DNA from: a bacterium
Lineage (GTDB): Bacteria > Krumholzibacteriota > Krumholzibacteriia > Krumholzibacteriales > Krumholzibacteriaceae
NCBI GenBank assembly: GCA_020350885.1
Contig: CP070727.1
Location: 2,944,590-3,008,589 of the forward strand
Direction of reading: 5' to 3'
Length of the DNA stretch: 64,000 bases
In this document: one piece after another, positions 45,863 through 64,000 of the stretch
Layout of the letters: each line of letters starts with the position of its first letter
Numbering within the stretch: the first letter of the stretch is position 1
Notes under the pieces: generated by a model
Databases searched by the model: none
Seen by the model: only the letters and a program-made list of their open reading frames with translations
Told to the model about the DNA's origin: nothing
Position numbers and translations under genes: made by a program

Positions 45863-46716
45863 GACCACACCTTCCCCGCCCCCACGGAGCGCGTCGGGCC
45901 CAGAACAGGATGGTACCGGCTGGCCACACCACACACGTAGGAGATCGGAGCCGTAACGATCCCCCACGTGACCTCGTCCGTATCCAACCGGTAGCCCGAG
46001 AGGAGCGTGAGCGATTCGCACAAATGGATCATCATACCAAAACGATGATCGTCGTGGGATGAACCCCATAGATTGCGTTGGTAGAGCAGGGATATCAATT
46101 CGATGCCGGCCGAGAGCCTGAGTATCCAGCTCGTGGATGGGGATGAACCGCTGCCGGCAAGAGCTCCTTCGAGCCCGACGGCAGCCCGGCTCAAGACCGC
46201 ACAGGAGACCGAGAGAGACACCGACATCTCCGTCTGTATGGGATATCCCTCGACCTGCATCAACGTACAGACCGGACGAACCCCCAGGCGAAGGCGATCG
46301 CAGAACAGAATCTGACGGTATTCGAGCGTAACGTGATCCTCGCGGTACAGCGTATGATCGAGGGCGGACCATCCGAACCAGCAAGCACGCTGTGGCGTGC
46401 GCATGCCTAATCGAAAGGAATAGACCAGGAGATCATCGATCGAATAGGGATTCGAGCATGTCGAAAGCAGCGCGATACAGCGGCGGTTCCCGCGTAGACC
46501 GATCCAGTCGAGATCCTCGCCCGGCGGCAGTGTACCCCCCCTCCCCTCGACCCATACCCAGGTTCCCACACATGCAGCCCGGCACCGTGCGGTCGTGAGT
46601 ACCGAGAGCACGAGAACGACGGCAAGACACCCAGTCGGCAAGAGATTCCATACCGGTCGACCTAGGGACCGCCATACCCATCGTACACCGCAAGGCAACC
46701 CGTTTCCTTCCTGCAC
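45856..46716 (-). CDS. Small exported barrel-like protein of unknown family
   Basis: A 286-residue protein. After about 28 residues comes a hydrophobic signal (NLLPTGCLAVVLVLSVLTTA), then alternating strands (HVTLEYRQILFCDRLRLGV, EMSVSLSVSCAVLS, AGIELISLLYQRN) that suggest a small outer-membrane barrel. Start is GTG 46716 with GGGAGG six bases upstream, inside the upstream lamin-tail gene, so the two genes overlap by 55 bp in different frames. Its end overlaps the next gene by 7 bp. I do not recognise the family. Confidence 0.65.
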   Translation of the reverse strand: MQEGNGLPCGVRWVWRSLGRPVWNLLPTGCLAVVLVLSVLTTARCRAACVGTWVWVEGRGGTLPPGEDLDWIGLRGNRRCIALLSTCSNPYSIDDLLVYSFRLGMRTPQRACWFGWSALDHTLYREDHVTLEYRQILFCDRLRLGVRPVCTLMQVEGYPIQTEMSVSLSVSCAVLSRAAVGLEGALAGSGSSPSTSWILRLSAGIELISLLYQRNLWGSSHDDHRFGMMIHLCESLTLLSGYRLDTDEVTWGIVTAPISYVCGVASRYHPVLGPTRSVGAGKVWSW

Positions 46717-48404
46717 ACGCCACCTCCCATCCCCAAAAACTCCACAACAACGATGTACAGACCCGTTCGTACGGGAACACCCCTCCCATCCCGTCCGTCC
46801 CAGCAGCAGGAAAATGGTCGCGCCCCACCCTCCTCACCGTACAGCCGCCGGACCTCGTAACCTTCCATGTCAAATACCCGAACGAGAAAACCATTCTCGC
46901 CGCCCCTGCATGCCCCCGCGATCTCAACCGTCCGATCCCGTTGCATGCAGAATGGATTCGGGGAGATTACAAGAGTACTTGCATCAAATCCCACCTCACC
47001 GCCCACGGAGTTCTCCCTGCCGGGCGTCGATCCGTACGCATGCCCGCACCGGTGCCACAATCCGCCCGGATAGGAACTGCAGGCATGCCCGGAGAAACGC
47101 TCGATGGAACGACCCCGTTCGTCGCCGATAACGTCTCCGTAGCCGACCCGCTCGGCCAGCCACCCCGATTCGTCCGCCAGTTCAATACGATCGGCCTCCT
47201 CCCCCGTACTTCGATCGTTGAGAACGGGCCATCCTCCGCTCACACCGTATACGGGCACCGTCCCCCCGATCCCCTCCCGGATCACCCGGTCGGGATACTG
47301 AGCTAGGATGAGATACCCTCCGGGTTCGATCCAGAGGTCATGATCCGATATCAATCGCCACATCCCCGTGCGGTCCCGCATCGACCATCCGTTGATGCAA
47401 CACGGCCGGTTCCCCCTGTTCAACAGCTCTATCCACTCGCTCCCCCCGTCGAGGGGGCGGTACATGATCTCGTTGATGACGATCGTGCCGGGTGAGGTAT
47501 GCTGTGTGGCCCGCGCCGTATCGTTCGCGGGATTCCCGTCACTCTCGCTTTCGATGATCGATTCGAACGCTACGAGTTCGGAAGGGGGAATCGATACAGT
47601 GATGGCGAACGAATCGGTACGTGCACCCGAGAGCACGCATCGTTGCCTGATACGATCGTATGCGTACGTCGCGCCGCGTACGTATACGGCGATCTCAACC
47701 TCCACCATGGAGGTAAAACGGTACAATCCGATATCCTCGATGCACAGCACCTGAGTACTCGAACCGCCGCGACACGGCGGCTCGGGCTCATTGGAGAACG
47801 CGAGCCTGAGGTCATTCGAATGGAAATTTCGTACACCCGGTGTCGGATCCGCGGGAACCAGATCCGTACCGTTGCAACCGGTATCATGACCATCGGGTCT
47901 CCGGGCTAGGCTCGATCCCGCCTCTACATCGGCCGCCGGCTCTCCCTCGAACGGTCCCTGTAATCCGAGGTCCCCATACCCGACAAGATCCACGATCCGG
48001 CCGTCGATACTGAGCCTGATCGCATCGGGACCGTTCTCCAGAGTGCCGGTAAGGAGCAGACCGGGGGACGGGTTGCGCCCGGAACCTGCAATGAGGAGAT
48101 ACCCACCGGGTACGATCTCCAATCCATCCCGGGCGTACCATACGGTGCGTGTCCCGCCGGTTCTCCCGTCTATGAACTCGAGATATGCTCCCGAGAGATC
48201 GCACACGAGGTCACCGGTCGCCAGGAGCTCGACAAACTCCCACCCCTGATCGCTCCCCGGGTGATCGTAGTAGAGTTCGTTGATTACCACTTGCGAACGA
48301 CACGCCAACGGTGTGCCCAAAACCAGGAATGAAAGAGAACAAGATACAATAACGAGTAAGTAATCTGTAATGGAGATTTTTCTTGGCAGGTTCACCCACA
48401 TCAT
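46662..48404 (-). CDS. Secreted protein with two lamin-tail domains and FlgD-Ig C terminus
   Basis: About 580 residues. A signal segment (YLLVIVSCSLSFLVLGTPLA) is followed by two lamin-tail (LTD) immunoglobulin-like domains, each starting with VVINELYYDHPGSDQGWEFVE or IVINEIMYRPLDGGSEWIE. A final FlgD-Ig-like domain (VISPNPFCMQRDRTVEIAG, VRVFDMEGYEVRRL, WDGRDGRGVPVRTGLYIV) resembles T9SS-type sorting tails. The protein is unusually rich in Cys. ATG 48404 (or 48401) follows AGAGGGG and is preferred to 48440. It is expected on the cell surface; role unknown. Confidence 0.83.
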   Translation of the reverse strand: MMWVNLPRKISITDYLLVIVSCSLSFLVLGTPLACRSQVVINELYYDHPGSDQGWEFVELLATGDLVCDLSGAYLEFIDGRTGGTRTVWYARDGLEIVPGGYLLIAGSGRNPSPGLLLTGTLENGPDAIRLSIDGRIVDLVGYGDLGLQGPFEGEPAADVEAGSSLARRPDGHDTGCNGTDLVPADPTPGVRNFHSNDLRLAFSNEPEPPCRGGSSTQVLCIEDIGLYRFTSMVEVEIAVYVRGATYAYDRIRQRCVLSGARTDSFAITVSIPPSELVAFESIIESESDGNPANDTARATQHTSPGTIVINEIMYRPLDGGSEWIELLNRGNRPCCINGWSMRDRTGMWRLISDHDLWIEPGGYLILAQYPDRVIREGIGGTVPVYGVSGGWPVLNDRSTGEEADRIELADESGWLAERVGYGDVIGDERGRSIERFSGHACSSYPGGLWHRCGHAYGSTPGRENSVGGEVGFDASTLVISPNPFCMQRDRTVEIAGACRGGENGFLVRVFDMEGYEVRRLYGEEGGARPFSCCWDGRDGRGVPVRTGLYIVVVEFLGMGGGVCRKETGCLAVYDGYGGP

Positions 48405-48476
48405 CCACCACCACCCCTCTACACGACACAGAGTGTACACCAGCCTGCTACCCGATGCAACAGATAATGTACCGCT

Positions 48477-50654
48477 CTATACCAACCCCCACACCTTTCT
48501 GAGAATCCACTCCGATGCGAGTAATAGAACGACACCGACGAAGAGCAGTGGATGTTGTCGCATTGGACGCACCGCCCGCCGCTCGATCTCCTGCGGTTCG
48601 AATCGAAGCGACTGGACAAGCGAAGGAAGCTCGTCCCCCTCCATGAATCGACCACCGGAGATACGGGCGATGTACCTGAGGAACCGGTTGTCCCTCGAGG
48701 TTCGCATGAACTCCACGGAGACCGGGACCACACTGATCGTCACATCGCCCGTGAGCCCTTCACCGGAAGCCCTCACAACCTCGGCTACCACACGGTACTC
48801 GCCCGGCGGAAGCTCTTCCAGCTCGGCCTCGAACATGCCGACCTGCCTGGGATCGGGATCGAAGAGAAAGGTGCGCACGATCCGCTCCCTTCCCTCCACC
48901 TGCTCGATCACCTCTCCCCGCACACCCTCCACCAGCCGTTGCTGGCGAAGGTAAACTGAGAGACGGATTCTGTCACCGCGCCGATACACCGTTCGATCGG
49001 AATCCACTTCCAGGGGAGGCAGATCCGCTCCCTCGGCGAGATACTGGATAAGATTTGAGAAGAATGCATCGTATACAATCCGTTCACCCGCCCCCACGAG
49101 CTTCCACCGCCAGAGGGGGAATCCGAGCACAACGGCGGAAAGCCCTTCACCGTAACGCTGAAACGCAAAGAAGGGATACGTCTTCCTCCCGCCCGTAAGT
49201 ACCAGGGGCACCCGCGCGCCGGCGGTCACCTCGAGACCCGAGACGGCGGCCGTAAGCGGCGGTAGCGCAGCCAATCCCCCATGCTCCTCGAGGGCCGCAG
49301 CAACCGGATCCATCCCCCCACCTGCAACGGCCTCCACGGCAAGCTCGCCGGTTTCTATCTCCCTCGCACCTACCGATCCGACCGGTAGAAAGTCTTCGAG
49401 TACATTCATTGCAGGTGCCCACCGTAACGGTGAATTCTCGCCCCCCAGCACCAACAGGGACCCTCCGGCCCGTACGTACGTTTCGAGTACACCGGCTGCC
49501 CGAGGATCGGTGAGTATCCTCGTGTCATCCTCGACGATTACGAGATCGAATCCGGAGAGCCCTGCCGCGGTCGCCGGGAAGCTCCAGGATCGCATACCAG
49601 GAACCGTAACAAATCCCCTCTCCGGAAGATACGTCACGAATTCCGCCTCGAACCGTTTCGTACGCTCGGTGAGATCTCGCAGAAAGGTCATATTCCAGTC
49701 CGCGTACTGATCGAGGAAAAGAAAGACGATCTTCGCCTTGAGCACCTTGATCGTTATGGACTCCGTGTTGTTCTCTTTCCATTCCTCGTCGTCGAGCGGG
49801 ACGGCGGTTATCACGAGCCGGCTGTCCCCTTCGGTGTCGGGCACGTATTGAAACGATGCATCGAACCTTTCGTCGTTGCTCTCGATGCTGACACGTTTCC
49901 TGCTCTTTGTAACGCCATCCTGTACGAGCTCTATGTCGACGTTCCTGCCGGCACAGCCCGTCGCCGAGAAGACGGCTTCGATCCCGGTTTCCGCCCCCGC
50001 ATAGGTAAGGCGATCATAGATAATATCCACCACCGAGATATCCGTGCCCTCCAGGGTATCACCGAATCCAGCCGTATACACCGGCACGGGCAACCGGGAC
50101 CCCGTTGTCGTCATACCTCTCGAAATGCGACCATCGGAAAGCAGTACGACCGCAACGAGGTTCAGGGTCCGGTACCGCTTCAGGGCCGTGGTAACGGCAC
50201 CGAGGATATCCGTTCCCTCTCCGGTAACCCTCACGGTGCTATCACTCGGGAGTGGCACCGGTGAAAGCTCGTTCGAGAAGGGTACAACCTCGATCCGGGG
50301 ATCCGACCGCCCGTGCAGCACGTCTCGAACCCGCCCGAGCTGTCTTTCCGCCTCCTCGATCCTGCTCACACCGTCACGGTTACGGATACCCATGCTCTTC
50401 GATCTGTCGAGGAGTACCACCATGAGCGGCTCCTTGACCTCACGGGAGAAAGAGATCAATACCGGATTCATCACGAACGCTGTGAGCAATATGAAAGCGA
50501 GTACACGTAATACGGTGAGCACCGCCTTCCGTGATGGAGAAAGCGGTGGAAAGGTCCGCCGGTAGATCACGATCGAAACGACCACGAGACAGGCACCGAG
50601 CACGAGCTTCCAAACCTTTAGATCGAATGCCAGTCTCTCCCCGATATCGAACAT
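48477..50654 (-). CDS. VWA-domain membrane protein with glutamine-amidotransferase-like fold
   Basis: A 725-residue inner-membrane protein. Two N-terminal membrane segments (about 16-31 and 45-65) precede a von Willebrand A domain with MIDAS motif DRSKS (Asp83, Ser85, Ser87). A middle part (about 300-480) looks like the GATase1-like fold (IVFLFLDQYADWNM, LVIVEDDTRILTD, GGSLLVLGGENSP) without a catalytic Cys that I can identify. A last membrane segment lies at about 703-720. Related proteins sit beside MoxR/Bat-type genes, but none is here. It lies 194 bp after the STAS genes. Confidence 0.82.
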   Translation of the reverse strand: MFDIGERLAFDLKVWKLVLGACLVVVSIVIYRRTFPPLSPSRKAVLTVLRVLAFILLTAFVMNPVLISFSREVKEPLMVVLLDRSKSMGIRNRDGVSRIEEAERQLGRVRDVLHGRSDPRIEVVPFSNELSPVPLPSDSTVRVTGEGTDILGAVTTALKRYRTLNLVAVVLLSDGRISRGMTTTGSRLPVPVYTAGFGDTLEGTDISVVDIIYDRLTYAGAETGIEAVFSATGCAGRNVDIELVQDGVTKSRKRVSIESNDERFDASFQYVPDTEGDSRLVITAVPLDDEEWKENNTESITIKVLKAKIVFLFLDQYADWNMTFLRDLTERTKRFEAEFVTYLPERGFVTVPGMRSWSFPATAAGLSGFDLVIVEDDTRILTDPRAAGVLETYVRAGGSLLVLGGENSPLRWAPAMNVLEDFLPVGSVGAREIETGELAVEAVAGGGMDPVAAALEEHGGLAALPPLTAAVSGLEVTAGARVPLVLTGGRKTYPFFAFQRYGEGLSAVVLGFPLWRWKLVGAGERIVYDAFFSNLIQYLAEGADLPPLEVDSDRTVYRRGDRIRLSVYLRQQRLVEGVRGEVIEQVEGRERIVRTFLFDPDPRQVGMFEAELEELPPGEYRVVAEVVRASGEGLTGDVTISVVPVSVEFMRTSRDNRFLRYIARISGGRFMEGDELPSLVQSLRFEPQEIERRAVRPMRQHPLLFVGVVLLLASEWILRKVWGLV

Positions 50655-50848: not shown

Positions 50849-51295
50849 TCAGGATTCAACGGTCGCATCGTTGGAGGATGCCACACTTGTTGCATCGTCG
50901 CGTTCTTCATCGACTCCCCCCTCCACCCTTCCCGTCGGGAGCGCACCGAAGCTCCCGACCGCATCGTCCAAGGAATCGAAGCTTTCCAGGATCGTTTGGA
51001 ACTCCAGGAGCTCAAAGACCTCGTATACATCCGCCACCATCTTTGCCAGCTTCAAATCGCCGCCATTCTCCCGGATCTTCTTGATCTCGCTGATAAAGAT
51101 GCCCCATCCCGCCGAACTGATATAGTTCACACCACCGAGATCGATAACGATATTGAACCGCCCCTTGCTGAGAAGGCGTTTGAGGCTCTCTTCTAGCTCG
51201 GATGCGGTCGTCGTGTCTATATACCCGTCAACGGATACTATCGATACGTCGGGATTGTCTTCGGGTCTCGAAAAGGCAATATTGATGTCTTCCAT
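50849..51295 (-). CDS. STAS-domain protein (anti-sigma antagonist-like), copy A
   Basis: A 148-residue protein: one STAS domain (about 15-115) with the key loop GVNYISSAGWGIFI, where the second Ser aligns with the Ser phosphorylated by RsbW/SpoIIAB kinases in RsbV and SpoIIAA. The usual Leu after the Gly is Trp. A ~35-residue acidic and Ser-rich tail follows. It is paralogous to the next gene upstream (YISSAGWGIFVGEIK against YISSAGWGIFISEIK). ATG has GAGGTC just upstream. It should be a mobile substrate of the kinase domain in the large protein at 53695-57870. Confidence 0.88.
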   Translation of the reverse strand: MEDINIAFSRPEDNPDVSIVSVDGYIDTTTASELEESLKRLLSKGRFNIVIDLGGVNYISSAGWGIFISEIKKIRENGGDLKLAKMVADVYEVFELLEFQTILESFDSLDDAVGSFGALPTGRVEGGVDEERDDATSVASSNDATVES

Positions 51296-51326: not shown

Positions 51327-51695
51327 CTACCCAAGCTTTGTATTCTCCTGTTTCGTAAAGGCGGATATCGCCTCTTCCTTTGAGCTATATGGGGTCAGCA
51401 AGGCATTGAACTCGAGAAGATCGAACACCTCGCGAACATCCGGATGCATACCAGCCAATTTGATATCACCGTTTCGCCCGCGCACACCTTTGATCTCACC
51501 CACGAAGATACCCCAGCCGGCCGAGCTGATGTAATGGACATCATTCAGATCCACCACAAACCTGACGCTGTTCGATGCGATAAGCTGCTTGAATTTCTCC
51601 TCGAGGAACTGTGCCGTTCCAGAATCCACGAGACCACGCAGCTTGAGGACAACTATATCCTCGACCCGATCTTCCTCTATCATTAATCTATCCAT
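51327..51695 (-). CDS. STAS-domain protein (anti-sigma antagonist-like), copy B
   Basis: A 122-residue, single STAS domain with DLNDVHYISSAGWGIFVGE; the candidate phospho-Ser is kept. It starts 47 bp after the TPR gene and precedes copy A by 31 bp. Both stand-alone copies resemble the three STAS domains of the large fusion, so all five probably arose by duplication within this locus and may compete for the same kinase. Confidence 0.88.
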   Translation of the reverse strand: MDRLMIEEDRVEDIVVLKLRGLVDSGTAQFLEEKFKQLIASNSVRFVVDLNDVHYISSAGWGIFVGEIKGVRGRNGDIKLAGMHPDVREVFDLLEFNALLTPYSSKEEAISAFTKQENTKLG

Positions 51696-51742: not shown

Positions 51743-52861
51743 TCAGTCCAACAAGGCCTTCAGAAGGATAAAAATACCCTGCCGGTCGTTCTCCGCTAAC
51801 CTAAGGTTCTTCTGTGCTTTCTTGTAATTATTATTGATCTCAAGTGCTTTCCGGAATGCCTCGCTTGCCATATCCATTAAAATCTTGCATTTTGCAGTAT
51901 AGAGAATCCCGAGGCTGTTGTACCCATCGGCGAAAGAAGGATTCTGCTCGATGATCCCCCGAACGCGTTTCAGGTAATTCTCGATGCTCCCTTCCGAGAG
52001 CTCCTCACCGCCGTTGATGAGCATCAGGTAGAGCTCGAGTACGATATCATCGATACCCTCTCTCCTTGTGTTACCCCTGATCTCACCGAGGGCTTCGTAG
52101 GTTTCCTCGTACTGCTTCTCCTGGAACAGCCGCTTTGCCCGATCGAGTGCTTCGCCCTGCAGGAAAGGATTCAGCTGTGAGGCACGCTCGATATTCTGGG
52201 AGAACTTGGTGTCGAGATCCTTCGAGAGCTCATAGTCCTCCTTGACTATCGTATTGAGAAGATACGCCCTAACCAGGTTCAGGTAGGGTTCCCCGTAGTA
52301 GATATTGAGTGCGATGGCTCGCTTGAAGCAACTAATCGCCTCACGGCACTGCTTTCTCGATAGGTATATCTTCCCGAGCAGGTTGTGCATATCGGGGTAT
52401 TCCGGATTGATGGCGATCCCTTTCAGTATGGCCTCAAAGGCTTTCTCGTGCTCACCCATTTGCCGAAGCGACTCTCCTATCACCACATACGGCTGCGAGT
52501 CCCTGTTACCCTTTTCGATGGCGAGCCGTGCCTCCTGGGCGGCCTCGGCATAAAGATTTCTCACGAAGAGTGCCTGAGCGAGTTTCGAGTGAGGTAGCGG
52601 ATCGTTTGAGTTCTTTACTTTCTCCCGTGCCCTGAGTAGCAACCGGAATTTATCCTTGTTAAGCTTATGGGTATTTTTCGTGAGAGTTCTGAGATCGTCG
52701 GGATCGGATGATGCATCGATACCGCGTGTAACGGTGTCGAATAACGTCCCGTTCTTGAAGAATGAGCTCTGGATGACCTCCTTCTGTGGGAGCAGGCTCG
52801 TCTGCAGAAAATACTTACTCCCGCCGTGGTCTATTTCTTCTCTGAGCTCGAAGCTGTCCAC
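51743..52861 (-). CDS. TPR-repeat protein of the partner-switching cluster
   Basis: A 372-residue cytoplasmic protein. About 75 N-terminal residues (including KYFLQTSLLPQKEVIQSSFF) are unlike TPRs and may be an interaction segment. The rest holds about six TPR motifs (NLYAEAAQEARLAIEKGN, EHEKAFEAILKGIAINPEYP, QCREAISCFKRAIALNIYYG and others). Start GTG 52861 has GAGGAGG five bases upstream. It sits between parA and the STAS genes and likely scaffolds partners; no enzymatic motif is seen. Confidence 0.82.
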   Translation of the reverse strand: MDSFELREEIDHGGSKYFLQTSLLPQKEVIQSSFFKNGTLFDTVTRGIDASSDPDDLRTLTKNTHKLNKDKFRLLLRAREKVKNSNDPLPHSKLAQALFVRNLYAEAAQEARLAIEKGNRDSQPYVVIGESLRQMGEHEKAFEAILKGIAINPEYPDMHNLLGKIYLSRKQCREAISCFKRAIALNIYYGEPYLNLVRAYLLNTIVKEDYELSKDLDTKFSQNIERASQLNPFLQGEALDRAKRLFQEKQYEETYEALGEIRGNTRREGIDDIVLELYLMLINGGEELSEGSIENYLKRVRGIIEQNPSFADGYNSLGILYTAKCKILMDMASEAFRKALEINNNYKKAQKNLRLAENDRQGIFILLKALLD

Positions 52862-52953: not shown

Positions 52954-53691
52954 TCAGCAGCAATCCAGAATCTCCTCCGTCAGGCGGTAGTAATCGAACG
53001 CACCCCTAGAAAGCGGGGCGTGCTCGTATATCGTTTTATTGTAATGAGGTGCTTCACTCAATGCGGTGTTTACGCGAATGACCGTATTGAATATTCTCCC
53101 CGAGAAACGCTCCCTGATCCGTCCGAGCACCTCCTTCGATATCCTAGTCCTGGCATCGTAGAATGTGGGCAGTATTCTGAAGTTCATCGAGTCATTGCCG
53201 GTACGTTCCTTGATGTCGTCGATAACCTCAACCGTCTGCCTTGCTCCTACCTGCGAGAGGTAATCCATGGCGATCGGTATAATGATGAGGTCACAGTATG
53301 CCAGTGCATTCACATTGATCAAATTGACCGAAGGCGGGCAGTCACAGAATACGAAATCACAACCCTGCAAATACCTGAGCGACTCACGTAGACGGTGCTC
53401 CCTCTGTTCGCTCCCCCCGAGCTGTAATTCCACCTCGATGAGTTTCCTTCCACCCGAGTCGATAATATAGAGGTTATCCCTGACCTGAAGGATCTCCACA
53501 TTCCCTGTGGTGAGGAGCTGAGCGAGACCCCGCCGACCGTAGACACCGAAGGTGATCGCCACGTTCCGTTGTGGATCGCAATCGATGAGCAGAACCTTAT
53601 TTCCGCACAACGAAAGCCCGTGTGCCACATTGATTGCGGTGGTGGTCTTGCCGGTGCCACCCTTCATCGTCATGACGGCGAGTTTTTTCAT
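52954..53691 (-). CDS. ParA-family ATPase
   Basis: A 245-residue deviant-Walker ATPase. The Walker A motif KGGTGKTTT (Lys10, Lys15) is intact, with LLIDCDPQRN (A') and FVFCDCPPS (Walker B). Such proteins position cargo or chromosomes by nucleotide-dependent dimerisation on DNA or membrane. No parB gene or parS site is seen nearby, which points to an orphan ParA used for positioning a protein complex. It follows the fusion gene by 3 bp, so its level is tied to that protein. Confidence 0.92.
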   Translation of the reverse strand: MKKLAVMTMKGGTGKTTTAINVAHGLSLCGNKVLLIDCDPQRNVAITFGVYGRRGLAQLLTTGNVEILQVRDNLYIIDSGGRKLIEVELQLGGSEQREHRLRESLRYLQGCDFVFCDCPPSVNLINVNALAYCDLIIIPIAMDYLSQVGARQTVEVIDDIKERTGNDSMNFRILPTFYDARTRISKEVLGRIRERFSGRIFNTVIRVNTALSEAPHYNKTIYEHAPLSRGAFDYYRLTEEILDCC

Positions 53692-53694
53692 GAA

Positions 53695-56600
53695 TCACTT
53701 CTTGCGCCGCTTCTGTTCCCTGTCCCGTTCTGCAAGTTTCCTGCCGTAATCCTCCCAACCCGTCTCCCTGATCTTCTTGTCCTTGTCTTCCCGAAGATCG
53801 ATCCCGTTGTCAAAGTCGATCACGGCCGCGCTGTCCCCCATCTGTTCCCCGGTGCGGGGGGTGAGGGGCTCGATATCGGTCTTCTCCAACCGGATCGTCC
53901 CCTTCTTGCCCATATACTTCTCATCTCCCTCTTTCTCGTCCGCTTCACCCGGCTGCGAGCTGTCCCTCCTGTGCTCATCCGAGACGATCTCTTCGATCGC
54001 TTTATCGACGTCCAGGAAATGCCGAATCAACGGCTCGAAGCCTAGATCCCTGAATATCCTGAATATCGGCTGGCTCATGCCGGTGATCGCCAGCGTGCCG
54101 CCGATCTCGCTGAAGCGCTGCACATACTTTATGATGACGCCCCATCCGCTGCTGCTGATGTATACCATCCCGGCACAATCGAGGAGGAGGTACCGATAGC
54201 TTCCATCCATGCATCTCTCGAGATGCGCTTCGAGGTACGCCGTTGTGCACGCATCGACAACACCCTGTATGTGTTGAATTATCAGGCCTTTAACCTGATT
54301 GTGGGAGATCGTGATCTCGAGATTGTTTGTCGGCTCGAAAACGGAACCGGTGGTGGAAGCCGCTTCATATCCCCCCTGGACCGGCTCGGTAGCCGCCCCG
54401 CTTATTGAAACCGCTTCCGACACGGCCGCTTCCCCCACGGATGGAGCCTCGTGCTCGAAATCGGTTATCGCCTCGGCGAGGATACTGAACGATCTCATGA
54501 TCGTATCGAATCCGAGCATGTGGAAGATGCTACCGACCTCCTGATCCATCCCGAAGATCTTGATATCCCCTCCCTCCCGACGGATGTCGTTGATCCTGGA
54601 TGCGAAGACCCCCCACCCGCTGCTGCTCACATACTCCACGCCCGACATATCGACAACCAACTTGTTCTTCCCCTGGCCGATCAAGTCGTCCATTATCGAG
54701 CGGAGACTCGAGCAGCTTACCGTATCGATGAGACCATTCAGATACAGAACCGTTATTTCGCCGTGCTCACCGACCGTACCCGCTTCTATGCGAAGCGGAG
54801 TCCACACCGCCTGCCCTTCCTCTCCCACAATCTCCGTGGGACCGACCTCGGTGATGCGATGCTCCAGAACCACCTCCTCCGCCCGTGCACGCGAGATCTG
54901 CTCTAGACGGTCTTGCCTCGCTTCGAAAGGCAGGGAGAGATACTCGACGGCTTCATCGACGTTCTGGAAGTCCATGATTATATCCTGAAATCCGAGCAGC
55001 TCGTAGATATCGTACACCTCGGGAGACATTCCAACCAGCACTACATCCCCCTCCCCCTCACGAAGCTGTTTCACCCTCCCGATAAATATCCCCCATCCAC
55101 CACTGCTGATGTACGAGACATCCTCGAGATCGACGATAACCATGCGGTAGCCGTACTCGTATATGCTCTCGAGGAATCCCTCGAACTCGCTCGCCGAGGA
55201 CGAATCGAGCGGTCCCCGAACCGTAAGCACCACGATCCCGCCCTCGAGCTCCCGTGTCTCTATAAGCATGGTGACGGCATCTTCACTCTCGATATCCATC
55301 GAACGTACAAGCTCGGTTTCCCCGGACACAGGTATGAGTTCCTCCGCTTCGGCACCCGCAGGCAGCGGTTCCGGAGCCTCAATGCGCCCGGGTTCGACCG
55401 CCGGAACCTCACCCGGTTTGAATCGTTCAATGGGAGAAGCGAGAAGCGACTCGTATTCATCATCCGTGATGATCCTGTTCCGGCGCAGATACTCGAGGCG
55501 TCTCTCGTATGTGTTCAACCTCATCCGCTTGAGCTCGTCGTAGATCAGCGAGGGGGTCAGCCGATGCCCGTCGCCCAGAATCTTGGCGATACGCTTTGCG
55601 CCATACTGCGGATAACGCTTGATGATCTCGATGATCCCTTTGCGCTGTTCGAGATTTACCCGCCTGATCTCGTGCTCCTTGCGAAGGGTCTTGTTCTTGA
55701 GGCCGCGCTCTCCCATTTCAAGGAGGCGCCGCCTGTAACGGTAGTACGTGGAAGGAGAAACCTTCATCCGTGCACATGCCTCTGCAACGGAGAGACCCTC
55801 CAGGTCGACGAGGTCGAGCAAGCGCTTGCGGATACCGAAGAGCACGTCGTCTGCCATGAGCTTCTCTTTGATGGCGACAACGGTGATATCATCGTTCTGT
55901 GCCATATTTCCGGTGAATGCCGCGATATCCTCGTTCAGGCGATCGATGAACTCTTCCGGCGCGAGCCTGCCGTATCGCTTGATCAGCCTGATCAGGCGCT
56001 CCTCGCCGTACTGCTCACGATCTTCATTCATCGCCTCCGTGACACCGTCGGTATAGATCACGAGCATATCATCCTTCTTGAGCTTGATCTTCTCCACATC
56101 GATAGATCGCCTGAAGAGCGTATCGTCCGGAAGGCTGATGCCGACGGGAAACCCCCGCGGATTCAGGAAGAATGTTTCATCGGATTCGGCCCGGTAGAGG
56201 ATCATTGGATTGTGGCCGGCGCTCGCATAACTGATGATCCTGTTCTTCGAATCGAGAATGACATAGAAGATCGTTACGAACATCCCCTTCTTCATATCCT
56301 CGGTAACGAAATCATTCATTCTGGCCATTACCTCGGCAGCCGAGAAATTACCCCTCGCCTCCATACGGAGCGCCGTCCTGATCATCGTCATAACGAGCGA
56401 GCCGGGAACCCCCTTCCCGGATACATCGGCGACCACCACACCCGTCGTATCGTCGTCGACATTGACGAAATCGAAGTAGTCGCCGCCCACCTCCTTGGCT
56501 GCGCGGTAGAGGCTGCCGATATCGTACCCGCTGACTCGCGGCACCTTCTTGGGAAGAAGGGTCTGCTGTATCTCCTGTGCGACCTGCATTTCCTTCTGGA

Positions 56601-57870
56601 GCCGCTCCTGTTCAACCACGTTCTTCTGCGCTTGACGGAACTTCGCCGTTATCTCGTTGAAGGCGCGTGCGATCTCCCCGATCTCCTTGGGGCCCTCAAT
56701 CCTGATCTCGTCATCGAGTGATCCCTCCCCGATGGCACGTACACCGTCCGTGAGCGCCTGGATCGGTTTGACCAAGACGGAGATGAGTAGATAGATCAGA
56801 GAGAGTCCCACGAGAAAGATACCCAAGAGGATAAGTGCCGTCTTGGGTCGCGGATCGCTGATCCCCTTCTCCACCGTTGCCGTCGACACGCCGAGGACCA
56901 CCCGCCCGAGAACTACACCACTTTCCGCACTCCCAGCAGAGAGTTGGATCGGTAGATGCAGCTCCTTGATCCCCCCATACTCGCGGCTTGGTATCTCGCG
57001 CCAATCCCCCTCCACCGGAACCTGGCGGACTTCGGGAGGAACATCGTACCGCTCGAAAAATTCATCGATCTCGTTCGAACATACGATGATTCCATCGTTA
57101 TTGACGATACGGGCGTAGAGTACGGCCGGTTGTTTATCGATCCGCTCGAGGATAAAATCGGTCACCTTCCGATATTCGGGATCGTAGATATCATCGAGAA
57201 CGAGGGCATTTTCACTCCTCGTCTCAAGCGCCTTGGCGAAGCTTCGCATACCCATCCATGCCGCGTTGCGCTGGACCTCAATCTCCCTCGTCTGGTTCAT
57301 GAACTGGATCACCCACAGAAAGACAACGAGACCCAGGAGACCCAGACCCGCACGAAGACCGAACTTGAACCGGAGCGTAGACGTCCATCTCGGCCTGACG
57401 GCAACCACACCGGGTCTGGCGACCGCGGCCCCCGCCGAGCTCTTGACCATGTAGAGTCGATTCCCTGCCTCGGAGGACCGGTAGTCGATATCGTCCATCA
57501 GGCGATTCATCAGGAAGATACCGAGACCGCCCTTCTTGCCTATCTCGACGTACTGTTGGAGATCCGGATCCTCGATCTTGGACCAATCAAACGCCTCACC
57601 GCGATCGAATATACTGATCTCCACCTTGCCGGGCTCCGCCTGGACATCGATCCGTATAACTCCACCCTGCTCGTGGTAGGCATGCTTTATGATGTTCGTA
57701 CATGCCTCGTCCATTGCGAGCTTCGTGTTGTTCGTCTCACGTTTCGAAAATCCGACCCGGAAACATATATCGGATATGAAATCCCTGACCTCACTGAGAT
57801 TGTTCTCGTCCGCCGGGATTTCGAGGTGGAAGGTTTCGCTTTCTGTCAGCAGTTCCCGCTTCACTGTCAC
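53695..57870 (-). CDS. All-in-one partner-switching protein: RsbW kinase + HAMP-PP2C + HTH + three STAS
   Basis: A 1391-residue membrane protein. In order: RsbW-like HATPase (about 10-145; N-box MDEACTNIIKHA with Glu55/Asn59, DRG at 89-91, GGLGIFL at 114-120); membrane segment 170-192; periplasmic sensor about 193-343; membrane segment 344-366; HAMP about 366-415; PP2C/SpoIIE phosphatase about 440-670 (GGDYFDF, DVSGKG, YTDGVTEA, NDDIT metal Asp residues present); transposase-type helix-turn-helix about 672-800; STAS domains at about 862-980, 1025-1138 and 1180-1297, each with SS[GS]GWG (Ser923, Ser1083, Ser1240); and a charged 95-residue tail. GTG 57870 overlaps the upstream stop by 4 bp. It should sense a periplasmic signal and set STAS phosphorylation. 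Confidence 0.9.
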   Translation of the reverse strand: MTVKRELLTESETFHLEIPADENNLSEVRDFISDICFRVGFSKRETNNTKLAMDEACTNIIKHAYHEQGGVIRIDVQAEPGKVEISIFDRGEAFDWSKIEDPDLQQYVEIGKKGGLGIFLMNRLMDDIDYRSSEAGNRLYMVKSSAGAAVARPGVVAVRPRWTSTLRFKFGLRAGLGLLGLVVFLWVIQFMNQTREIEVQRNAAWMGMRSFAKALETRSENALVLDDIYDPEYRKVTDFILERIDKQPAVLYARIVNNDGIIVCSNEIDEFFERYDVPPEVRQVPVEGDWREIPSREYGGIKELHLPIQLSAGSAESGVVLGRVVLGVSTATVEKGISDPRPKTALILLGIFLVGLSLIYLLISVLVKPIQALTDGVRAIGEGSLDDEIRIEGPKEIGEIARAFNEITAKFRQAQKNVVEQERLQKEMQVAQEIQQTLLPKKVPRVSGYDIGSLYRAAKEVGGDYFDFVNVDDDTTGVVVADVSGKGVPGSLVMTMIRTALRMEARGNFSAAEVMARMNDFVTEDMKKGMFVTIFYVILDSKNRIISYASAGHNPMILYRAESDETFFLNPRGFPVGISLPDDTLFRRSIDVEKIKLKKDDMLVIYTDGVTEAMNEDREQYGEERLIRLIKRYGRLAPEEFIDRLNEDIAAFTGNMAQNDDITVVAIKEKLMADDVLFGIRKRLLDLVDLEGLSVAEACARMKVSPSTYYRYRRRLLEMGERGLKNKTLRKEHEIRRVNLEQRKGIIEIIKRYPQYGAKRIAKILGDGHRLTPSLIYDELKRMRLNTYERRLEYLRRNRIITDDEYESLLASPIERFKPGEVPAVEPGRIEAPEPLPAGAEAEELIPVSGETELVRSMDIESEDAVTMLIETRELEGGIVVLTVRGPLDSSSASEFEGFLESIYEYGYRMVIVDLEDVSYISSGGWGIFIGRVKQLREGEGDVVLVGMSPEVYDIYELLGFQDIIMDFQNVDEAVEYLSLPFEARQDRLEQISRARAEEVVLEHRITEVGPTEIVGEEGQAVWTPLRIEAGTVGEHGEITVLYLNGLIDTVSCSSLRSIMDDLIGQGKNKLVVDMSGVEYVSSSGWGVFASRINDIRREGGDIKIFGMDQEVGSIFHMLGFDTIMRSFSILAEAITDFEHEAPSVGEAAVSEAVSISGAATEPVQGGYEAASTTGSVFEPTNNLEITISHNQVKGLIIQHIQGVVDACTTAYLEAHLERCMDGSYRYLLLDCAGMVYISSSGWGVIIKYVQRFSEIGGTLAITGMSQPIFRIFRDLGFEPLIRHFLDVDKAIEEIVSDEHRRDSSQPGEADEKEGDEKYMGKKGTIRLEKTDIEPLTPRTGEQMGDSAAVIDFDNGIDLREDKDKKIRETGWEDYGRKLAERDREQKRRKK

Positions 57871-59768
57871 TCCGCCTCGGGTGAACCTATCTTCTGGAGC
57901 CTGATTTCAGCCTCCTCGATATTCTTCATGACGCTCTCGTTGTCCGGATCGATCTGGAGTATCTTTTTCCATTCCTCGATGGCGGCTACATAGTCGTTCT
58001 GGGAGAAGTACTTCATGCCGGCAATATAGAGCCGCCTGATCTCCTCCTTTTCCTCGTCCGTAAGCGGTGTGATCCGCCTCTCTGCACGCCGGAGAAGCTT
58101 TCGACCCTCCTCGTGGTCGGGTTGACGCGTAAGCAGCTCGTTCAGGAACCCGACGGCCTCCGCGTACCGCCCCGCACCGAATGCGCCGACGGCTTTCTCG
58201 AACAGCTCGATCACCTCGAGTCGTGTGCTTGCGGTAGCATAATCCCTGCCGAGATTCTCCAGATATCCGCTGATCCGTTCGATGGCCCCCCTGGCTACTT
58301 CCGACTCCGGATCGATGACCAGAACGATGTTCCATTCTCCGAGTGCATCGGCATGGCGCCCGCCCCGTTCGAGCTCCCGTGCCCGCCTCCGATGTTGCTC
58401 GATACGCTCCGACAACTTCTCCTCGGTACGCGCGAGGTATTCCAACGCCTGCCCGTTCGTAGGATCGAGATCGAGGACATTCTGCCACTCGGCGCGGGCG
58501 AGCAGATACTCGTTACTGCTGTAGTATTTAAGCCCGAGATTGAAATGCTGATTGATGAGCAATGACTTCTCCGCATCCTTCGTGCGCCGCTCCTGCTCGT
58601 CGAGGATGGCGTCGCGCACGACCGAGAGTGTCTCGGCAGCCGCTGTGTTCGTCGGATCGTACTCGAGCACGATCTTCAGTTCGTCGAGGGCCCTTTCGAG
58701 CTCTCCCTCGCTCCGATAGACATCGGCGGCCCGTATATGGGACGAAATACGATCGGCGAAGAGGCTCTGGAGGCGTGTATCCTCCTCTTGCGCTCTGCGC
58801 TCGTCCCTGACCCGTATCCGTTCCTGGATCGAGGAGCCGATTCTCGCCGAGAGCGAAATCGGATGCGAGCTGCCGGCTTCCTCACGGCTGAAGTACCCGT
58901 AGTCGACCTGGAAACCGTGCCACGCAAACCCGACTCCCCCCGTGATCTGCTCAGAGTCGTAACCGACGCGTACGTGCAGCATGTCCCTGTACCGGTACTC
59001 CACCCCCGCACGCAGATCGTTGTCGGCCCGCTCCGGAACATCAAATTGCAGGGCGAGCGTCAATGCCGAGCTGTTACCGAACAGATGGAAGTAACCTGCA
59101 CCGAACATGATGGTCCTGTCCACTTTCTCGCTTTCGGATACGAGCTTCGTTTCCGCACCCACGATGTCCTGGAGGTTGAGGCCGAGAATCACACCCTTCA
59201 GGACGGGAGGGCGATAGAGAAGGCCGACATCGAGTCCCGTTCCCGTATCGGAGAAATCACCCACACGCTGGCTGAGAACCTTCACCGATGAACCGAACGT
59301 CAACCTGCCCAGGAAATTCCACCACGGGTAATCAAAAGCATACCCGAGGATCACCTGGCTTTCCCGATACGAGATCTCCCCCAGATCCAACGCGGGATTC
59401 TCCTCTTCGTAGCGGCGGATGCCACCGACACCAACCGTCATCACTCCGATACCGATGGAACCGGTGGAGAGGGTGGGATACACCATGCCGACAAAATCGT
59501 ATGAGGCATCACTGAAACCGGAGAAGAGCGGTATATGGTTTGCCATGATTGCCGGGTACTGGTTCAACCGCAGGGCGGCGGGATTGTAGTACAGGACGGC
59601 GGGATCGTTCCCGATCGCAGAGAATGCCCCGCCCATGGCGATCGCCCGTGAGCCGGCCCCAACGCTGAAGATGGATCTCGTCCCGCCGGATCCCTCCTGC
59701 GCCCGAGCTGCCTGCACCACTCCTGTAAGCAGCACCATCATCAGTACGGCAACACGTATCCTCTTCAT
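57867..59768 (-). CDS. PorV-like outer-membrane barrel fused to TPR repeats
   Basis: A 633-residue exported protein. Signal peptide MKRIRVAVLMMVLLTGVVQA, then a ~300-residue barrel of the PorV/UPF0164 type (FSVGAGSRAIAMGGAFSAIGN, DPAVLYYNPAAL, GYFHLFGN), and from about 340 on a periplasmic helical part with TPR repeats (GELERALDELKIVLEYDPTN, EYLLARAEWQNVLDLDPTN, NDYVAAIEEWKKILQIDPDN). PorV carries secreted cargo to the surface in T9SS; the TPR part could receive it. It lies 6 bp after the giant surface protein and is coupled by a 4-bp overlap to the partner-switching gene. Confidence 0.87.
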   Translation of the reverse strand: MKRIRVAVLMMVLLTGVVQAARAQEGSGGTRSIFSVGAGSRAIAMGGAFSAIGNDPAVLYYNPAALRLNQYPAIMANHIPLFSGFSDASYDFVGMVYPTLSTGSIGIGVMTVGVGGIRRYEEENPALDLGEISYRESQVILGYAFDYPWWNFLGRLTFGSSVKVLSQRVGDFSDTGTGLDVGLLYRPPVLKGVILGLNLQDIVGAETKLVSESEKVDRTIMFGAGYFHLFGNSSALTLALQFDVPERADNDLRAGVEYRYRDMLHVRVGYDSEQITGGVGFAWHGFQVDYGYFSREEAGSSHPISLSARIGSSIQERIRVRDERRAQEEDTRLQSLFADRISSHIRAADVYRSEGELERALDELKIVLEYDPTNTAAAETLSVVRDAILDEQERRTKDAEKSLLINQHFNLGLKYYSSNEYLLARAEWQNVLDLDPTNGQALEYLARTEEKLSERIEQHRRRARELERGGRHADALGEWNIVLVIDPESEVARGAIERISGYLENLGRDYATASTRLEVIELFEKAVGAFGAGRYAEAVGFLNELLTRQPDHEEGRKLLRRAERRITPLTDEEKEEIRRLYIAGMKYFSQNDYVAAIEEWKKILQIDPDNESVMKNIEEAEIRLQKIGSPEAE

Positions 59769-59774
59769 ATCATC

Positions 59775-62700
59775 CTACTTGGCGACGGCGATCTTGAATG
59801 TCGCCGAATGCGAGCCCGCCTTCACGATGCAGATATAGACACCGTTTCGTACGAGCTGTCCCCTGTCGTTTCTCCCATCCCATTCGACATCCCCGCACTC
59901 CATGTCCCCTCCCATGGCGGTCCCGCCACCTTCCTCTACCCGTTCATCATGCGTCCACACGAGACGCCCCATAAGATCGTAGATCCTGAACTGCGCCGTC
60001 GTTCCCACCGGCGCACAGTAGCTGATCTTCGTCGTCTCGCCGCCGGCCTGGAACGGATTCGGATAGTTGTGTACATAATCCTCGAACCGGGAGCTCATCA
60101 CCGAGAGCTGCTCGCTTCGGAAATGGCCGCCGATATCGTCACCGTTATGTCTCACGGCGATCCTCGGCCCCGGTTCGCCCCCGGGAAGGGTAATGGAGCA
60201 GACGACATCATCGCTGCCGGCGATGTCGAGGTACAGAATGCCTTGAGGGGCTTCTTCATCGATATCGACACGTAATAGAACGGTATCCTGTGCACCGCTC
60301 GAGACGGTGTCCACATGCCCGATGACGATCGGTACGGGATTCTCAACGGGTGAAAGAGCCGTGAATATACCGTCGTTGGTTACGAGCTCGAGAGAGGAAA
60401 TCGACCGCGATGGATCCTCCAGGAGCCCCCCACGCCTGTCTTCGATCTCGACGTAGATAATATCGAAACCAACGGTGTACACGGTACCGTTGTCGTATAC
60501 GATCCTCATGACGGGAACATCCTGCGCTCCCTGCGGCACCAGATCGGGTGGAATAGCGTCGAGATAAGAGATGTTGGACATGGATATCCAGCCCGCCTGT
60601 GTCTGAACCGGTTGCGGTTCTCCCGTTAGGGTGTCTGCAGCCATATTCGTGTTGACATCGCGTGCCAGCGGCTCGACGAAACGCACGAATATATTCTCCG
60701 GAGGTGATTCGACCGGCGAAGCCCTGAGGCGCCAGACAACCGGCTCTCCCGGATAGAACGGCTTCAGGTATGTCTCCCCCGCACCGTCGAGGCTATAGCC
60801 CTCCGGAAGCGTGATCTCGAGCCGTGCCCCCCGCCCGCCACCGGGGTCGGTGGTATCGACAGCGGCATCACCCATGTTCTCTACAGAGGCCTCCAGGGTG
60901 AACGGCAACCTGGTACTGAGAACACCGTCCAGCGCCTCCTCGGGACCCGATATTCCATAGGAACAATAGAGCACGGCCTTCCGAACGACATCGACCTGGA
61001 CCTGTGCGCCGCAGCCTGCGAACCATATCCCGGAGTTGCCGTCCCTCACATCGGTGGATAGCTCCAGCAACTCGCCGGTACGAACGTTATCGGGAGCGTC
61101 GATCGTCCAGGTTATCGTGTGCTGGATGCTCCCTCCAACGGCCGTGCTGTCGGTTCTGCCGGTAATCATGAACCCTGAAGGCACGAGTATATCCACACGC
61201 ACCGAATCCGAATTCAGGGAGCGTTCGAACGTCGCCCGCAGCTGGAACTCCTGCTCGGTCGAGAGCACGTTGTCCACGGCCCCTGTCGGCGATATGATCG
61301 AGAGGGCACAGTTGCCGACGGTCGACCGGTCCTCGGTTACGACAACGAATTCGTCGCTCCGCTCGGGCGCAGCGGCGGAATCGGCCGTGTTGGCGGCGTG
61401 AGGCAAGCGGCTGATCCCGACCGAGACCGTCTCCACCGATGCATCGTGCGGGGCGGTAAGCGTCCAGGAGAGCTCCCGGCCCGTTTGGAACGGCCTGACG
61501 CGGGGCTCGACGCCGGGATCCCGAAGGGCGAATCCCAGCGGAACCGTAATGGCGATCTCACCTGTATCGTCCACATCCGCCTGGCCGGTATTATCCACCA
61601 CCGCCGATACGGTAAGATCCTGATCCGTCGAGACGGTATCGTCTACGGCGCCGGCGGGGGATGATATCCAGGCGGTGCAATGCAGCGATGCGGGGAGCTG
61701 CACACGCAGGTACTCGACCGATTCGACGGCCTGTATCGGTGAGATACGTTCTCCGGTCGTTCGGGACACGGCTTTCTCTATTGCGGCCCTGAGTATCTCG
61801 TCACCTGGTGTCGATGAGGCGGTGACCTCGAATATGAATTCACCTGTCAGGCCCGAGTCGATCATCGGTGCGGCCGAGAGCAGGTTCGTCGTCGAGTTTC
61901 CCCCCTCGCACACGAGACTGACCTCGACACTGTCGAGATCGTCGCCGCCCGTATTGCTCACGACCACGGTTACGTTGAACACCTGCCCCGTGTCGATCAC
62001 CGATGTATTGGGATAGAGTTGATTATTCGGTGCATCACTCGAAACCGACTCGATCCGCAGACCCGAGGGCTGTGTGACGACGATGGAGGAAACCGCCTGG
62101 GATTGATCCACGAGCTCCGGCTGGTTGCCGTCAATCCAGCCGGTCGAGGCTCTGATCTCTACGTCGCCGACCGCGCTTCCTGTCGTTGAGATCAGGTAGA
62201 TCAACGAGTCGCGTGCACCGCCGGCGAGTGAGAACCCGGCACCGCCCGATCCGAACGTGTCGGGCGCCACCACGAGGTAGTCCAGGAGCTGGGAACCGTC
62301 GATATGGAAGGTGATATCGTCTGGATCGGGATCGGAGAGGATGATCGGAGCCTCCCCCTGATTGAAGAGCGAGAGCGTTACCGTCCAGTCGACCGTCTGG
62401 CCCGAACTGACCTCGGGCTGAGAAGGCTCGAACGACTCGATCAGGAGATCACCCGGTCTCTGAATGACTGCCCCGGCGGTATCGTCGGGGAACGGAGCCA
62501 TGATCAACACGAGACCGGGCTCGCCCGAGTTCGCGTCGAGCGCCGATACGATGTCGGCCGTAAAGGTCTCGGGACCGCTCGAGTCGGCGGCCCTCACGAA
62601 GAAGGTGTCTCTGTGGGATACGTTGCCTTCGAGATGGGGGATCATCTTCGGCGAATTCTCTATGACCGAGGCGCCCGAACCCGAGAGGGTAACCTCGATA

Positions 62701-64000
62701 CTGTCGACGGCGGCCTCCTCAGTATTCTCGATCTGCATCACGACGGGGAAACGCTGCGTGCGGTTCACGAACGGTGTCCTGAAGGCGCGGTTCTCGAGTG
62801 TAGTTATACGGATATGCGCCGGTTCCTGGATCTCTATCGAGCCGGAGCCGGATCCCGACTCCTCGGTATCGAAATAGGCATACAGCTGGCTGTTATTCTC
62901 GACGAAGCCCACACGTCCATGAAGGGCGAGGTTTGCTCCACCCGTTATGCGCGGTGTCGGGGTGATCTCGAAGGTGAGGTTCCTACACTCACCCCCGCCG
63001 AGTACCACACCACTCCCGTCGAATCCCGCCGGCGGCGTGTAGGTGAGCTCCGTGTCGGGATCAGCGAAGATATAGGTGCTGTCCATGAGCAGGGTCAGAT
63101 CTGCCTCACCGTTGTTGCACACTTCGAGTGTCAGTGTCCACGGCGTCACCTGAGCGGATGTGACGGTCGCATGGCTCGGTTGTGCGGAGGCTATCACGGG
63201 CAGCCCCGGTTCCTGTATGAGCATCGGGCTCCAGCCGCCGCTGAAGGTGCTGTCGGCGACGGGCAGGCCGCTGTTCACATCGAGTCCCGTGATCCGCCCG
63301 TTCACCAGGGCCGTACCGGATGTCGTGCCCGTGCTGTCGACGGTGAAGACCAGCGTATCGGTCCTGCCTCCCCACAGTGTATCAGTTTCCGCGATACTGA
63401 GAGATCCGGGAGGCACAACGGTATACTCGGCGGTGCGATCCCCCGAGCCGACTATGGAGAAGGTGATTCCCGTCCCGGGCGGATCGAGATCGACGACCAC
63501 CGCCGCCTCACCGTTGTTCTGGAGCACCATCTGCGCATACCAATCCCGTCCCTGATCCCTAGTGACGGCCGGCGGCACGAGTATGCGCTGAATGCTCAGC
63601 TTCGGTGCATCCTCGACGGTGATGCTGTCCGTCCCGGTATCGAGATCATCCGAAAACGGATTGCCGTTCTCCAGGCCTTCGAGATGGATCGCTACCGGAT
63701 AGTCCCTCCACTCGAGCGCCTGATCGATCAGCGTCTCGGTGAAGATCAGTGTAACGTCATTTCCCCCGACAAGATTTCTGTTCGACGCCGCCGAGAGGTA
63801 TGCGGTAAACGTGTCGCCGTCGGCGTCCCCGAATTCGACGTACGTCCGTTCGGGATCGAGTACGAGCATAGCATGGTCCGGATCGTCGCTTGCGATCTCG
63901 CACTCGAGCGATACGTACGTCCCACTGCTCACGACCGGCGGCCGTATGCTTCCGATGACGTAACGCGGTGCCGGCACACGCTGGAAGGTCATGGAGTCCG
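59775..64000 (-). CDS. Giant secreted repeat protein with FlgD-Ig C-terminal domain (5' end outside window)
   Basis: At least 1405 residues; the frame is open to the right edge and the first Met at 63992 shows no start features, so the true start is beyond 64000. The chain is a series of ~180-200-residue Ig-like, CARDB-type repeats, with recurring phrases such as SFEPSQPEVSSGQTVDWTV, TLSLFNQGEAPIIL and VVVSNTGGDDLDSVEVSL. It ends with a FlgD-Ig/T9SS-type domain (NYPNPFQAGGETTKISY, FRIYDLMGRLVWTH, WDGRNDRGQLVRNGVYICIV). It is a likely surface adhesin or sheath protein and cargo for the PorV-like barrel encoded 6 bp downstream. Confidence 0.85.
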   Translation of the reverse strand, partial: DSMTFQRVPAPRYVIGSIRPPVVSSGTYVSLECEIASDDPDHAMLVLDPERTYVEFGDADGDTFTAYLSAASNRNLVGGNDVTLIFTETLIDQALEWRDYPVAIHLEGLENGNPFSDDLDTGTDSITVEDAPKLSIQRILVPPAVTRDQGRDWYAQMVLQNNGEAAVVVDLDPPGTGITFSIVGSGDRTAEYTVVPPGSLSIAETDTLWGGRTDTLVFTVDSTGTTSGTALVNGRITGLDVNSGLPVADSTFSGGWSPMLIQEPGLPVIASAQPSHATVTSAQVTPWTLTLEVCNNGEADLTLLMDSTYIFADPDTELTYTPPAGFDGSGVVLGGGECRNLTFEITPTPRITGGANLALHGRVGFVENNSQLYAYFDTEESGSGSGSIEIQEPAHIRITTLENRAFRTPFVNRTQRFPVVMQIENTEEAAVDSIEVTLSGSGASVIENSPKMIPHLEGNVSHRDTFFVRAADSSGPETFTADIVSALDANSGEPGLVLIMAPFPDDTAGAVIQRPGDLLIESFEPSQPEVSSGQTVDWTVTLSLFNQGEAPIILSDPDPDDITFHIDGSQLLDYLVVAPDTFGSGGAGFSLAGGARDSLIYLISTTGSAVGDVEIRASTGWIDGNQPELVDQSQAVSSIVVTQPSGLRIESVSSDAPNNQLYPNTSVIDTGQVFNVTVVVSNTGGDDLDSVEVSLVCEGGNSTTNLLSAAPMIDSGLTGEFIFEVTASSTPGDEILRAAIEKAVSRTTGERISPIQAVESVEYLRVQLPASLHCTAWISSPAGAVDDTVSTDQDLTVSAVVDNTGQADVDDTGEIAITVPLGFALRDPGVEPRVRPFQTGRELSWTLTAPHDASVETVSVGISRLPHAANTADSAAAPERSDEFVVVTEDRSTVGNCALSIISPTGAVDNVLSTEQEFQLRATFERSLNSDSVRVDILVPSGFMITGRTDSTAVGGSIQHTITWTIDAPDNVRTGELLELSTDVRDGNSGIWFAGCGAQVQVDVVRKAVLYCSYGISGPEEALDGVLSTRLPFTLEASVENMGDAAVDTTDPGGGRGARLEITLPEGYSLDGAGETYLKPFYPGEPVVWRLRASPVESPPENIFVRFVEPLARDVNTNMAADTLTGEPQPVQTQAGWISMSNISYLDAIPPDLVPQGAQDVPVMRIVYDNGTVYTVGFDIIYVEIEDRRGGLLEDPSRSISSLELVTNDGIFTALSPVENPVPIVIGHVDTVSSGAQDTVLLRVDIDEEAPQGILYLDIAGSDDVVCSITLPGGEPGPRIAVRHNGDDIGGHFRSEQLSVMSSRFEDYVHNYPNPFQAGGETTKISYCAPVGTTAQFRIYDLMGRLVWTHDERVEEGGGTAMGGDMECGDVEWDGRNDRGQLVRNGVYICIVKAGSHSATFKIAVAK

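Follow-up and report, generated by a model that had tools for sequence, protein, structure and literature searches.

A membrane-anchored kinase, phosphatase and triple STAS fusion beside a PorV/type IX-like surface cluster in Krumholzibacteriota

The window analysed here, a stretch of 64,000 nucleotides from a genome of the Krumholzibacteriaceae (GCA_020350885.1, contig CP070727.1, positions 2,944,590 to 3,008,589), encodes a single chain of 1391 residues in which an RsbW-type kinase domain, a periplasmic sensor, a HAMP domain, a SpoIIE-type PP2C phosphatase, a helix-turn-helix (HTH) region and three STAS domains follow one another. For this fusion, hereafter the switch, the sequence directly shows which parts are present and in what order, together with their key residues and conservation. 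As to function, we consider the chances about even that the switch, anchored in the membrane, regulates by partner switching the surface/secretion gene cluster in which it lies. This reading is drawn from the domains and motifs, and from the likeness to Rv1364c of Mycobacterium tuberculosis, a characterised switch and the best fold relative.

The fusion gene lies at positions 53695–57870 on the reverse strand, as do all features given below. Its frame is uninterrupted from the GTG start at 57870 to the stop at 53695 (1391 codons). The kinase domain (residues 14–145; 57436–57831) was matched by Pfam HATPase_c_2 at residues 18–143 (2.9e-30) and by the RsbW structure 6m36 (2.1e-14). Membrane helices are predicted at residues ~168–190 (57301–57369; hydropathy, and a long helix in the model) and ~343–365 (56776–56844; hydropathy 2.86). 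The region between them (residues 191–342; 56845–57300) seems to be a periplasmic sensor of the single-Cache/PDC type. The AlphaFold2 model of this region was confident (pLDDT 86.7), and in Foldseek the predicted fold of residues 160–345 resembled the sensor domains of WalK (5is1) and CitA (8biy/2j80); Pfam sCache_3_2 gave a weak match at residues 199–339 (3.5e-4, below its cut-off). The second helix leads into a HAMP domain and a conserved coiled-coil linker with the motif AQEIQxxLLP (residues 362–440; 56551–56787; Pfam HAMP at residues 362–407, 7.3e-10). The phosphatase follows (residues 441–670; 55861–56550; Pfam SpoIIE at residues 472–668, 8.1e-51), with 3ke6, SiaA, RssB and SpoIIE as fold relatives of this region. 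After the double HTH (residues 673–811; 55438–55854) come STAS 1 (residues 869–980; 54931–55266), STAS 2 (residues 1036–1145; 54436–54765) and STAS 3 (residues 1206–1318; 53917–54255), which were matched by Pfam at 7.9e-56. A receiver domain was not among the Pfam domains. These results bear out the sequence-only reading, which had described a kinase, a HAMP-coupled phosphatase, three STAS antagonists with their key residues, two membrane segments and a periplasmic sensor in one chain: the N-terminal ATPase, the HAMP domain, the phosphatase, the HTH and the three STAS domains were all found by profile. Its term "complete" for the circuit was too strong, since the chain contains neither a sigma factor nor another output partner.

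The N, G1 and G2 boxes of the kinase (E55, N59, D89 and G114–G117 in DEACTN, DRG and KKGGLG) and the four metal-site motifs of the phosphatase (GGDYFD, ADVSGKG, TDG and NDD) were invariant or nearly so among 44 homologues, judged in those that cover the stretch concerned. A motif of the YxSSxGWG type occurs in each tethered STAS. In the domains aligned, the second serine falls at the position of the SpoIIAA phospho-serine, the established phosphorylation site of that protein. The phospho-serines thus predicted are S923, S1083 and S1240 in STAS 1, 2 and 3, and S58 and S61 in two stand-alone STAS proteins of the cluster. In every full-length homologue the acceptor serine is retained in all three tethered domains; in family f2 the first motif serine of STAS 3 is replaced by Asn and the second stays. 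This retention, even beside the Ser-to-Asn change, does not agree well with the idea that the tethered STAS domains serve chiefly for scaffolding or dimerisation, phosphorylation cycling being confined to the two free STAS proteins. The idea is favoured by relatives without tethered STAS and by STAS 3, the fastest evolving, but is considered quite improbable.

The homologues also decide whether the gene is an artefact of assembly or annotation that joined separate genes. All three tethered STAS motifs occur in one frame in 21 representative homologues, and the same architecture and frame recur in independent assemblies from many genera, so that an assembly-caused fusion was rejected and its probability can be regarded as practically negligible. 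Nothing in this genome points to it, and what might be cited in its favour is that the gene is broken at scaffold gaps in two relatives, G036 and G042. A natural split in G036 was rejected because both halves stop at 100-base N runs; the absent kinase of G042 likewise adjoins such a gap. The N runs that interrupt the gene in these two genomes (L079, L089 and L080) look like scaffold gaps. G045 is without fused STAS, but its frame carries stops in the HTH, and it was not used as evidence. A relative of the switch at E<=1e-90 was found in 31 of 80 genomes of the phylum. By family, these were 19 of 20 genomes in f1, all five in f2, five of six in f7, the single genome of f8 and one of four in f6, with none in f3, f4 and f5 of this set. 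The named close relatives belong to Candidatus Krumholzibacteriota.

Simpler arrangements are found in relatives. Eisenbacteria-type genomes have a PorV-family gene, a switch with the HTH but minus the STAS domains, and then separate STAS, VWA and lamin-tail-domain (LTD) genes. Goldbacteria-type genomes have PorV and a kinase-Cache-HAMP-PP2C protein of ~770 residues, the tail of which is shortened; no STAS match lies near the switch. Tethering of STAS therefore looks like a derived addition, a direction inferred from the comparison of these arrangements. It should be mentioned that two loci titled Methylomirabilis and Spirochaetia (L068 and L072) have PorV, switch and histidine-biosynthesis-like genes arranged as in the Goldbacteria type; these titles may be wrong. 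It had been proposed that tethering makes the STAS phosphorylation state a self-contained readout of a periplasmic signal. Part of this proposal is supported, in that the chain has all parts to write and erase STAS phosphorylation together with a membrane sensor, and the cluster holds two free STAS genes. Tethering is not the defining trait, however, because STAS is separate in the Eisenbacteria-type and located elsewhere in the Goldbacteria-type genomes.

The HTH region was matched by Pfam HTH_23 at residues 681–725 (1.7e-07) and, below the respective cut-offs, by HTH_32 at residues 708–776 and by NF033577 (1.2e-17). The match to the IS481 transposase covers positions 2–111 of 284 only (64 bits, cut-off 224), and a full-length match that takes in the catalytic core was not obtained. 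Judged from these matches, helices in the model and its conservation, the region is a transposase-type (IS481-like) domain. A probable transposase akin to it is encoded elsewhere in the same genome (L099:1130-2125). Since the region is like the DNA-binding part of IS481 transposases, and the first HTH is strongly retained in the Krumholzibacteriota and Eisenbacteria-type rows, the switch might be a membrane-tethered transcription factor, with kinase/STAS exchange gating the binding of its double HTH to DNA close to the membrane. This seems unlikely: the Goldbacteria-type relatives have a shorter version of the region that has lost its match to any HTH family, and the domain may bind protein instead.

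The upstream neighbour and the fusion gene share 4 bases, and the latter stops 3 bases ahead of the next gene. The conserved order of the cluster is surface protein, PorV/TPR protein, switch, ParA, TPR protein, STAS a, STAS b, VWA protein and LTD protein. The upstream neighbour is a PorV/PorQ-family outer-membrane protein with TPR repeats (57867–59768; NF033709, 101.7 bits, cut-off 90). A PorV-family gene adjoins the switch in nearly all loci having upstream sequence, and directly precedes it from Krumholzibacteriota through the Goldbacteria-type genomes, which favours a link of the switch to the surface cluster. Further upstream is an Ig-like surface protein, the C-terminal part of which lies at 59775–63992 and runs past the window. 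Its full length is 3439 residues (L093:2365-12684), its Ig domains are of the Big_1 and CARDB-like types, and its end matches TIGR04183, the type A sorting signal of the type IX secretion system (T9SS), at 24.7 bits, just above the cut-off of 23. SprA, the T9SS channel, was above cut-off in 24 of 25 relatives, in agreement with this link.

Downstream of the switch, a ParA-like ATPase (52954–53691; AAA_31, 3.9e-35) and a TPR protein of 372 residues (51743–52861; Pfam) are conserved in position. The N-terminal ~70 residues of the latter are conserved, are alike in L089 and match no family. STAS a (51327–51695) and STAS b (50849–51295) were recognised by Pfam and motif, and STAS b also by its relatives. 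A membrane protein of 725 residues (48477–50654) is of the VWA type, as judged from weak VWA_2/DUF4350 matches in the relative L064 and its conserved place after STAS; the protein of this window itself has no Pfam match. The last gene encodes a conserved LTD protein with a weak FlgD_ig C-terminus (46662–48440; LTD, 5.8e-23). A scan for promoters and terminators gave matches no more numerous than in shuffled sequences.

There are 13 STAS domains in this genome. All five in the cluster read SSxGWG, including the two stand-alone proteins that, in the sequence-only reading, could carry the signal away; among the eight others, six were readable and none of these six has GWG, and two were unreadable by the pattern used. 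This is in favour of the proposed reading. Other RsbW-like kinases, PP2C proteins and STAS domains, non-GWG where readable, occur elsewhere in the genome (L096, L097 and L098). In the STAS tree, which has too few columns to resolve the deep order, the five positions form largely stable groups. Copies related to STAS b were present in six of six sampled genomes outside the phylum set, and each of five Goldbacteria-type genomes searched has a STAS ~52–56% identical to STAS b, none adjoining the switch; the latter result is likewise in favour of the proposed reading. In five genomes of f3 and f6 (L168, L169, L170, L171 and L172) the trio STAS(GWG)-VWA-LTD stands alone, the other cluster parts being unmatched there except for weak PorV/TPR matches. 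The persistence of the trio without the switch ties STAS to the VWA and LTD proteins, and suggests that the VWA protein may be a functional partner of STAS. It also weakens GWG as a strict marker of this kinase, since no close kinase relative accompanies the trio.

The one-chain principle of kinase, phosphatase and STAS is already known. Rv1364c (PDB 3KE6), the best relative in sequence and fold and the closest solved one, is described as having the entire SigF toolbox on one polypeptide, and its own domains add phosphate to the STAS serine and remove it again (PMC9138534). For Rv1364c the same review cites a paper that, by its title, concerns "Loss of kinase activity"; this calls for caution, as a kinase domain alone is no proof of activity. 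The two proteins share PP2C, RsbW-type kinase and STAS in a single polypeptide. However, Rv1364c has the order PAS-PP2C-kinase-STAS with one STAS, a PAS sensor, no membrane part described and no HTH, and acts on SigF, whereas the order here is kinase-TM-Cache-TM-HAMP-PP2C-HTH-STAS x3 (TM, transmembrane helix), so that the present protein does not fall into the Rv1364c order. SypE of Vibrio fischeri likewise has an N-terminal serine kinase and a C-terminal PP2C in one chain, and controls the STAS protein SypA (PMC10120452). The kinase and PP2C order is shared, but SypE has a central receiver, which is absent here, and no membrane sensor described, fused STAS or HTH. HsbR/CrsR, acting with HsbA/CrsA in Pseudomonas and Shewanella, also fuses PP2C and kinase, but in the order receiver-PP2C-kinase and without fused STAS or membrane sensor; the STAS partner HsbA/CrsA also binds partners that are no anti-sigma kinases, namely FlgM and HsbD (PMC6482189). 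SypE and HsbR/CrsR show that outputs besides sigma factors exist. In Bacillus RsbU/RsbW/RsbV and the chlamydial Rsb system, the same three biochemical roles are assigned to separate proteins. The novelty claimed by the sequence-only reading is thus narrowed by Rv1364c; in the literature found, three STAS domains with an HTH and a membrane sensor, this domain order and a PorV-linked cluster had no match. What is new is the conserved PorV/T9SS-like cluster, the SSxGWG motif common to its five STAS domains and the simpler arrangements in relatives.

In the proposed mechanism, the periplasmic Cache domain would respond to a signal from the envelope, which may plausibly be the state of the PorV/T9SS-like cargo whose gene lies just upstream. 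Membrane helix 2, HAMP and the coiled coil would convey this signal to the PP2C domain. How far S923, S1083, S1240 and the two free SSxGWG proteins are phosphorylated would then depend on the relative activities of kinase and phosphatase. The two free proteins might be the diffusible output, with local partners (ParA, TPR and VWA proteins) as targets in place of a classical SigB/F factor. As a later addition, the three tethered STAS domains could compete for the kinase from within the chain, and so set a threshold or keep the module in an inhibited state as long as too little dephosphorylation has taken place. PorXY-SigP of Porphyromonas offers an analogy only: there, a CTD (C-terminal domain) protein of the cell surface, PorA, reportedly passes a signal on to the regulator of T9SS genes (PMC7712824); that system consists of a two-component system and an ECF (extracytoplasmic function) sigma factor and has no STAS. 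The most specific form of the proposal, in which the switch senses the state of the type IX-like system and controls it directly through three tethered and two free STAS domains on ParA/TPR/VWA, with no sigma factor and with the tethered copies as threshold, is put forward only tentatively.

The nearest kin of the kinase domain are the anti-sigma factors RsbW and SpoIIAB, and the genome has several sigma-70-family proteins. The domain scored below the NCBIfam equivalog cut-offs for anti-sigma RsbW (NF003144, 88 bits against 145; TIGR01924, 79 against 155). The switch might be a classical anti-sigma device, in which the RsbW domain holds a sigma factor at the membrane and frees it upon binding any dephosphorylated STAS, as in RsbW/SpoIIAB and Rv1364c-SigF. 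We regard this as a lesser but serious possibility. None of the cluster genes was seen to encode a sigma factor, and the same kinase type has other outputs in SypE-SypA and HsbA-HsbD. The SigBFG profile had no match above cut-off in 25 genomes, which speaks for an output other than such a factor, although the cut-off is strict (one of 14 control genomes passes) and an unusual target sigma factor could escape it. Besides this, several points weigh against regulation of the surface cluster by the switch: SprA also occurs in families without the switch, the GWG STAS proteins of f3 and f6 mean that GWG is no proof of kinase partnership, gene neighbourhood is association and not regulation, and kinase/STAS activity and interaction are predicted from sequence. 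The local surface machinery, and not a known sigma factor, is considered the most likely output.

The switch is conserved across a little-studied group of bacteria, beside genes resembling a surface-protein secretion system. If the proposed regulation is true, uncultured phyla would have a partner switch linked with a PorV/T9SS-like surface cluster; a literature search on partner switching with PorV and on type IX with SpoIIE and STAS found no paper on such a coupling. With one putative kinase and a predicted phosphorylatable serine in each of five related STAS domains, the system would provide a direct test bed for specificity and buffering. The relatives form a comparative series, from PorV with kinase-phosphatase, through the addition of one free STAS, to two free and three tethered STAS domains; with this series, the reasons for the fusion of signalling parts can be put to the test.

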